Below are positions 8,517-9,713 of a DNA stretch of 64,000 nt, piece by piece. Origin of the DNA: Marinicauda salina (GTDB taxonomy: Bacteria; Pseudomonadota; Alphaproteobacteria; Caulobacterales; Maricaulaceae); NCBI RefSeq assembly GCF_003122085.1, contig NZ_QEXV01000001.1:744001-808000 (forward strand), given 5' to 3'. The notes beneath the pieces are model-generated. The model made no database searches and was not told the origin of the DNA. It saw only the letters and a list, made by a program, of their open reading frames with translations. The position numbers were made by a program, and so were the translations under genes. How positions within the stretch are numbered: the stretch's first letter is position 1; each line of letters opens with the position of its first letter.

Positions 8517-8531
8517 GTTCCCACAAGCGAA

Positions 8532-8559
8532 AACGCCGCGCCCGGTCGGGCGCGGCGTT
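8532..8559. terminator. Bidirectional hairpin between ABC permease and rpsU
   Basis: A perfect 13-bp stem, AACGCCGCGCCCG paired with CGGGCGCGGCGTT around a 2-base loop, lies between two convergent genes (stops at 8516 and 8597). The stem edges are A- and T-rich on both sides, so it can act as a terminator for either strand. Confidence 0.75.
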
Positions 8560-8596
8560 CGAATTCCGTGAAGCGACGCCTTTCGGCGCGGACGGT

Positions 8597-8833
8597 CTAG
8601 CGGCGGCCGCCGCGTCCCTTCTTCGGGATCAGACCTTCGCGCTGGGCGCGCTTGCGGGCCAGCTTACGGGCCCGGCGGATCGCCTCGGCCTTCTGTCGCG
8701 CACGCTTTTCGGAGGGCTTCTCGTAGTGGTTCCGGCGCTTCATCTCGCGGAAGGTGCCCTCCCGCTGCATCTTCTTTTTCAACGCCTTGAGCGCTTGCTC
8801 GACGTTGTTATCGCGCACGACGATCTGGACGAT
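8597..8833 (-). CDS. rpsU: 30S ribosomal protein S21, apparent AUC start
   Basis: 78 residues including the S21 signature [20 protein letters not shown] and the basic tail KKGRGGRR. S21 sits on the 30S platform near the anti-Shine-Dalgarno region. No ATG, GTG or TTG occurs where the conserved N-terminus should begin. The codon that gives the expected (M)VQIVVRDNN is ATC at 8833-8831, placed 4-7 bases after an AAGGGAGAGAG ribosome-binding site. The only nearby ordinary start in frame is a GTG five codons further in (8818), badly spaced from that site and removing conserved residues. An upstream ATG at 9046 would add 71 unrelated residues. The gene is divergent from coq9. Confidence 0.85.
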
Positions 8834-9044
8834 GGCTCTCTCTCCCTTGTCTTCGGTGCGGTTCGGGACCGCGCTCGTCAGAATAACACACGACGGGCGC
8901 GAAGAGCTGCATTCGTCCTTCGCGTCCGCGCCGGATCGCTTCAATGAGGCGCGGGCTTTAGCAGAGCCCCCGCGCGCTGTCCATAGCAGGCGCGGAAGGC
9001 GCGCCCGCGTGACGCGCCGGCTTTCGAGGACTATGTAGGAAGCC

Positions 9045-9713
9045 ATGAGCGAATTTCACGACCACCCCCGCGCCGACGCCGCTCGCGACGCCCTGCTCGC
9101 CGCGGCGCTGCCCGAAGCCGCCTTCGACGGCTGGAGCGAGGCGACGCTCGCCCGCGCCGCCGAGGCCGCCGGGCTGAGCGAAGGCGAGGTCGAGCTCTAC
9201 TGCCCGGGCGGCGTGCTGGACATCCTGGAGACCTGGTCGCGGCGCGCCGACGCCGGCGCGGAGGCCGCGATCGCCGCCGCCCCGCCGCCCAACCGCATCC
9301 GCGACAAGGTCGCGAACGCGGTGATGATCCGGCTCGACCAGATGGCCGGCGAGGAGGAGGCCGCCGCGCGCGCCCGCGCCCGGCTCATGCTGCCCGACGC
9401 CGCCGATCGGGGCGCGCGCCTGCTCTGGGCGACCGCCGATATGATCTGGCGGGCGATCGGGGATACGTCGACGGACGGGAATTTCTACTCCAAGCGCGCC
9501 ATTCTTTCGGGCGTCTACGCCTCGACGCTGGCGATCTGGCTCGAGGAGTCCGATCCCGAGAAGCCGAAGACGCGCACCTTCCTCGACCGGCGCATCGACA
9601 ACGTCATGCAGTTCGAGAAGGCCAAGGCGGGCTGGCGCAAGGCGACGTCAGGCCTGCCCGATCTCGCCGGCCTCGCCGCGCGGCTGAGATACGGGCCGGG
9701 GCGACGGGTTTAG
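9045..9713 (+). CDS. COQ9-family ubiquinone biosynthesis protein
   Basis: 222 residues. The N-terminal 70 residues resemble a TetR-like helix-turn-helix ([24 protein letters not shown]), as in COQ9. The C-terminal half carries the COQ9 signature [26 protein letters not shown] and [18 protein letters not shown]9 is a lipid-binding helper that presents quinone precursors to the ring-modifying enzyme COQ7; bacterial COQ9 genes are found almost only in alphaproteobacteria, which supports the taxonomic placement. The ATG is preceded by GTAGGAAGCC. It is divergent from rpsU and convergent with purK. Confidence 0.9.

Follow-up and report, generated by a model that had tools for sequence, protein, structure and literature searches.

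The rpsU gene of Marinicauda salina, which encodes ribosomal protein bS21, begins with little room for doubt at an AUC codon, and comparison with related genomes indicates that a start other than ATG, GTG or TTG has been conserved in place over much of the order Caulobacterales: ATC, ATA, ATT or CTG stands at the rpsU start in 118 of the 163 order genomes read. We consider it likely that this weak start has been selected for low or controlled translation, and we lean, with less assurance, toward a measurable repression of rpsU by IF3; that bS21 itself closes a feedback loop on its own gene is a tentative proposal. The overall account that we favor, with some reservation, is that of a single rpsU with an AUC start, in which the weak start would be kept by selection, and it extends as far as IF3 proofreading.

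The gene lies in a stretch of 64,000 nucleotides of M. salina (referred to here as the window), in which the following features bear on the argument:

8597..8833, minus strand: rpsU, encoding ribosomal protein bS21 (78 residues, counting the AUC codon as residue 1)
8831..8833, minus strand: ATC start codon, read from the sequence and compared across the order genomes
8840..8848, minus strand: Shine-Dalgarno (SD) region, read from the sequence, its GGAG (8845-8842) lying eight bases ahead of the ATC
8816..8818, minus strand: in-frame GTG at codon 6, the next in-frame canonical codon and a rejected alternative start
8955..8983, minus strand: promoter-like block TGGACA, 17 bases, TAAAGC, conserved in the leader alignment with close relatives
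8531..8560, minus strand: hairpin with a TTTT-type tail 3' of rpsU (13-pair stem, -27.7 kcal/mol, z -3.08)
9045..9713, plus strand: COQ9 family gene, divergent neighbor of rpsU (TIGR02396, E 6.5e-41)

The rpsU product scores above the cut-offs of both S21 profiles (TIGR00030: E 1.1e-19, 70.1 bits against a cut-off of 28.95, residues 2-57; PF01165: E 2.7e-20, 73.8 bits against a cut-off of 27), which places it in the bS21 family, and an S21 profile search of the M. salina genome returned it as the single match. The start context on the minus strand reads ...GACAAGGGAGAGAGAGCC ATC GTC CAG ATC GTC GTG CGC GAT..., such that the conserved V-Q-I N-terminus of S21 is directly preceded by the ATC at 8833-8831. 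The upstream GGAG sits within AAGGGAGAG, and GGAGAG is conserved where the leaders of close relatives are aligned. AUC is almost never used as a bacterial start codon; the original prediction had placed the S21 start here, and this claim is now strongly supported by the comparison with relatives given below. The coordinates and sequence on which it relied are correct: the ATC occupies 8833-8831, the GTG 8818-8816, and the gene ends at 8597.

The gene is probably transcribed alone, because a hairpin and a T run follow it; we regard the hairpin at 8531-8560 as the probable terminator of a single-gene transcript, and the terminator scan did not list it. The block at 8983-8955 would, by our own reading of the conserved leader, be the promoter; a consensus promoter scan reported none. 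Folding gave no sign of a structured rpsU leader (z 0.30), and its one Rfam match (E 0.61) was not above threshold. An out-of-frame ORF of 34 codons (window 8808-8912, minus strand, from an ATG at 8912) overlaps the rpsU start; it was discarded as a candidate, its ATG having no counterpart in the leader alignment of relatives. The NCBIfam model that matches the COQ9 gene at 9045-9713 is named diverge_rpsU, which suggests that the divergent arrangement of the two genes is a recurrent one.

Profile searches found an S21 match in 120 of 137 genomes of the family, 199 of 200 of the order, 186 of 192 of the class, 40 of 40 in the family of genome G138 and 118 of 120 in the phylum. Start regions were read in 163 order genomes, 75 class genomes outside the order and 25 genomes outside the class, chosen as the best-scoring loci plus picks across the listed genera, with the order and class genomes drawn from among the matches listed. 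The alignment of start regions covers 220 genomes (163 order genomes, spanning 57 genera, and 57 class genomes from outside the order), to which 18 more class genomes were added. Nine loci at contig ends were dropped (five order, four class; L028 among them reads as ATC), as were repeat reads of three genomes (G138, G146, G258) and a further S21-like match of G025, L234, which gave no alignment. One S21 copy was counted per genome, leaving out extra copies in, for example, G280, G217, G284, G528 and G540. Where class genomes have two start-like codons in a row (e.g., TTG GTG) the second was counted, and L414, with CTG followed by ATC, was entered under CTG. All codon counts and p values ignore kinship. 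Comparison with phage S21 yielded one viral-contig match, cut by a contig end.

Across the order, the rpsU start codon is ATC in 79 genomes, CTG in 32, ATG in 27, TTG in 14, ATA in five, GTG in four and ATT in two. Of the 163 genomes, 162 thus have one of these seven start-like codons at the position of the ATC; the remaining one, G280, has AAC there and was counted under GTG, which it carries one codon on. Within six genera, different weak codons occur side by side (ATC with ATA, ATT or CTG), without ATG among the members read. ATC is also present in the genome of an isolate, Glycocaulis albus (L061), and among 80 named loci 16 are of the weak-start type (ATC 6, CTG 6, TTG 4), among them Glycocaulis albus, Maricaulis and Robiginitomaculum with ATC, Aquidulcibacter and Candidatus Phycosocius with CTG, and Marinicaulis with TTG. 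A recurrent context precedes the start: among the 135 order genomes whose rpsU start is not ATG, 126 have C at -1 and 133 a pyrimidine at -2 (window 8834-8835), with C at -1 found elsewhere in 38 of 49 infC genes, 20 of 27 genomes with an ATG start, 25 of 45 class genomes that start at the Val codon and 10 of 27 ribosomal-protein genes of M. salina itself. G280 (L142) has two S21 matches; its genus mates start with TTG, and the copy read was perhaps acquired.

Outside the order, the 75 class genomes show GTG (41), TTG (15), ATG (6), ATC (6), CTG (4) and ATA (2), with one ambiguous. The 12 that carry ATC, ATA or CTG bear 11 different family labels, so weak rpsU starts arose or were kept repeatedly. 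All 25 rpsU loci read from other Pseudomonadota outside the class, the best-scoring of the phylum search, start with ATG. Judging from these counts, a weak start at rpsU seems to be a habit of the Alphaproteobacteria, taken furthest in the Caulobacterales.

ATG at this place, which the original prediction had named as a finding that would speak against AUC, does not occur in the order outside one clade: all 27 cases fall in eight genera of the window's family (L018, L022, L024-L026, L029, L195-L201, L203-L206, L216-L224, L233). The S21 N-terminus has diverged in this clade to VEIYVRQNN or IEIYVRQNN, and the predicted SD is weaker, with a median pairing of -6.7 kcal/mol (n=27) versus -9.3 kcal/mol in the other genomes (n=136). 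In both clade members in which infC was read (G059 and G061) that gene keeps ATC, and the start change there is therefore specific to rpsU. As a side reading, the clade could be seen as a natural switch of start strategy; it may represent a single event.

The likeness to infC, the textbook gene under IF3 control, had been drawn in the original prediction and is strengthened by comparison. Starts of infC were placed by us before the conserved RRP, at SD distance, in 49 of 60 matches (L425 was lost at a contig end). M. salina infC (L141, about locus position 1451) starts with ATA, and the 49 order genomes have ATA (29), ATT (10), ATC (9) and TTG (1), that is, AUH in 48. Among the 27 ribosomal-protein genes named in the M. 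salina ribosomal operon region, ATG is the start in 26 and GTG in the remaining one, S13; these names are presumptive, assigned from N-termini and gene order, and S12 was not recognized among the ORFs of the region. The comparison of the genomes read establishes AUC as the start of rpsU, a weak or near-cognate rpsU start that the order conserves and that many other members of the class share, AUH at infC in the order, and the absence of such starts from the 27 other ribosomal-protein genes of M. salina. At the same time, CTG is common at rpsU (32/163) and occurs at infC in 0 of 49 genomes, and therefore no single codon rule covers both genes. The interpretation first given to the AUC is supported in part: the start itself and the link to infC stand, IF3-sensitive autoregulation would be a fair conclusion from them, and the CTG, TTG, GTG and ATG starts counted above, together with the ATC kept at infC in the ATG clade, speak against a narrow reading in terms of IF3 and AUH codons.

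How might such a start work? The AUC of rpsU would presumably be read by initiator tRNA as formyl-methionine, with the normal GGAG ribosome-binding site positioning the ribosome on it. A weak start kept by selection would entail, at the least, inefficient initiation at rpsU. IF3 would moreover be expected to discriminate against this AUC, as in start-codon proofreading at infC, and AUC, AUA, AUU and CUG at rpsU should all face the same proofreading. The outcome would be a lowered, adjustable supply of bS21. In the simplest form of feedback, 30S subunits whose stringency is lowered by a shortage of bS21 or IF3 would initiate more often at rpsU. Feedback by IF3 or bS21 through the rpsU start codon is a plausible proposal. 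A near-cognate start can at any rate be dispensed with, because 27 of the 163 order genomes have ATG and 18 have TTG or GTG. Taken further, and quite speculatively, rpsU may be a second start-codon-gated translation gene in Alphaproteobacteria, in which start strength would sense how the 30S subunit is composed or how active IF3 is: subunits lacking enough bS21 or IF3 would relax stringency and refill the bS21 pool, giving a homeostatic signal common to infC and rpsU.

The strongest competitor, a real if lesser possibility, is a constant throttle, by which the weak start simply lowers the yield of a well-transcribed single-gene mRNA to ribosome stoichiometry, without any regulation by IF3 or bS21. 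A gene that is seemingly transcribed alone could not have its output balanced together with that of the other genes in a long operon, and the interchange of ATC, CTG, TTG, ATA, ATT and GTG is what would be expected if low strength alone matters; the weaker predicted SD of the ATG clade likewise looks as if one weakness had replaced the other. Against this, the same end could be reached by weakening the SD or reducing transcription, yet the order genomes usually keep a fair SD, by predicted pairing, together with a weak codon, and a start of this type is also found at infC, where feedback by IF3 is known.

The SD of rpsU in the window is ordinary: its predicted pairing is -8.9 kcal/mol, and 15 of the 27 ribosomal-protein genes of the same genome are stronger, assuming the canonical 16S tail (a 16S gene was not found in the M. 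salina data by a search that was positive in 9 of 14 genomes). These values bear on another reading, in which bS21-less ribosomes would translate rpsU better through pairing with the 16S tail and the start codon would be secondary. Such feedback is reported for Flavobacterium johnsoniae, whose ribosomes lacking bS21 favor rpsU mRNA (PMC9976891), and non-ATG order genomes do have the stronger predicted SD. The extended, exceptionally strong rpsU SD of the Flavobacterium type is absent from M. salina, however, although the -13 kcal/mol limit of that paper is on another scale than our -8.9 kcal/mol, and we judge this reading improbable. The two cases are alike in the gene and in a proposed control of bS21 at translation initiation, and differ in that F. 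johnsoniae combines an extended SD with sequestration of the anti-SD, by bS21, bS18 and bS6 (PMC9976891), whereas here an ordinary SD meets an unusual start codon.

Far less probable is a start at another codon, with the ATC internal or untranslated. The rpsU frame is open upstream of the ATC, with TTG at 8944-8942 and ATG at 9046 (a 149-aa ORF), so that together with the GTG at 8818 the window offers three canonical codons in frame, one of which would be picked by any gene finder limited to ATG, GTG and TTG. An internal codon should not, however, show the restriction seen here, where all but one of the 163 genomes have a start-like codon. Among the 135 order genomes whose start is not ATG, 57 carry GTG at codon 6; the GTG at 8818, which the original prediction had already dismissed, is thus without counterpart in 78. 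As for the upstream codons, ATG 9046 lies above and TTG 8944 just below the promoter-like block at 8983-8955, and we judge both implausible starts; in six of 30 family loci (L007-L010, L013, L020) an in-frame TAA or TAG stands two codons before the ATC or ATA. Of these 135 genomes, 55 are free of ATG, GTG and TTG throughout codons 2-21. In 49, a stop interrupts the frame upstream and nothing between it and the start codon is canonical, the stop lying two codons away in 15 of the 49. Both hold in 12 of the 118 genomes with ATC, ATA, ATT or CTG, so that these 12 relatives strictly lack any canonical in-frame replacement. A start at the Val codon itself (GTT, GTC or GTA) was also considered, prompted by the GTG found one codon further in 63 of the 80 named loci, mainly Hyphomicrobiales (one locus has ATG there), and was rejected because the codon ahead of it is start-like in all but one of the 163 order genomes; none of the 133 Val codons at codon 2 of the order genomes with non-ATG starts is GTG, excluding G280. 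A sequencing or assembly error for ATG, for which the original prediction had asked that 8831-8833 be checked, would need one base only, and is refuted by the relatives that share the ATC.

Non-canonical starts as such are already known; what appears to be new is such a start in the gene for a ribosomal protein, together with its conservation across a large part of an order. Our search of the open literature, with subscription papers, preprints and supplements outside it, found no account of a non-canonical rpsU or S21 start among the papers listed. As described in PMC5472188, IF3 represses codons other than ATG, GTG and TTG and thereby controls infC and sigR, the autocontrol of infC by IF3 is proven in E. 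coli, and very few non-canonical starts have been characterized experimentally. Like infC, rpsU is a translation-initiation gene with a conserved non-canonical start (AUU, AUC or AUA at infC); they differ in that IF3 control of infC is experimental in E. coli whereas rpsU is known here from sequence, and in that rpsU also uses CTG, TTG and GTG. Streptomyces sigR resembles rpsU in joining a conserved non-canonical start (GTC) to a strong ribosome-binding site, and differs in being another gene of another phylum, with a double-mismatch codon and with IF3 repression demonstrated by experiment (PMC5472188). For Caulobacter crescentus, which probably belongs to the same order as the M. salina of the window, a profiling map gives 0.7% CTG and 0.25% other near-cognate starts; the main text of that paper does not mention S21 or rpsU, and the gene list in its Dataset S1 may hold the rpsU start (PMC4117421).

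A weak start kept in so many relatives suggests that cells hold back, and perhaps regulate, the production of S21. The control of bS21 in E. coli is called unknown in a 2024 review (PMC10931766), and rpsU could serve as a test case for it, as well as a natural one for why cells retain inefficient starts. There is a practical side as well: the sigR start was misannotated to a canonical codon (PMC5472188), and S21 N-termini may be at similar risk in many alphaproteobacterial genomes. The relatives with ATC, CTG, TTG, GTG and ATG at this position form a ready allelic series.
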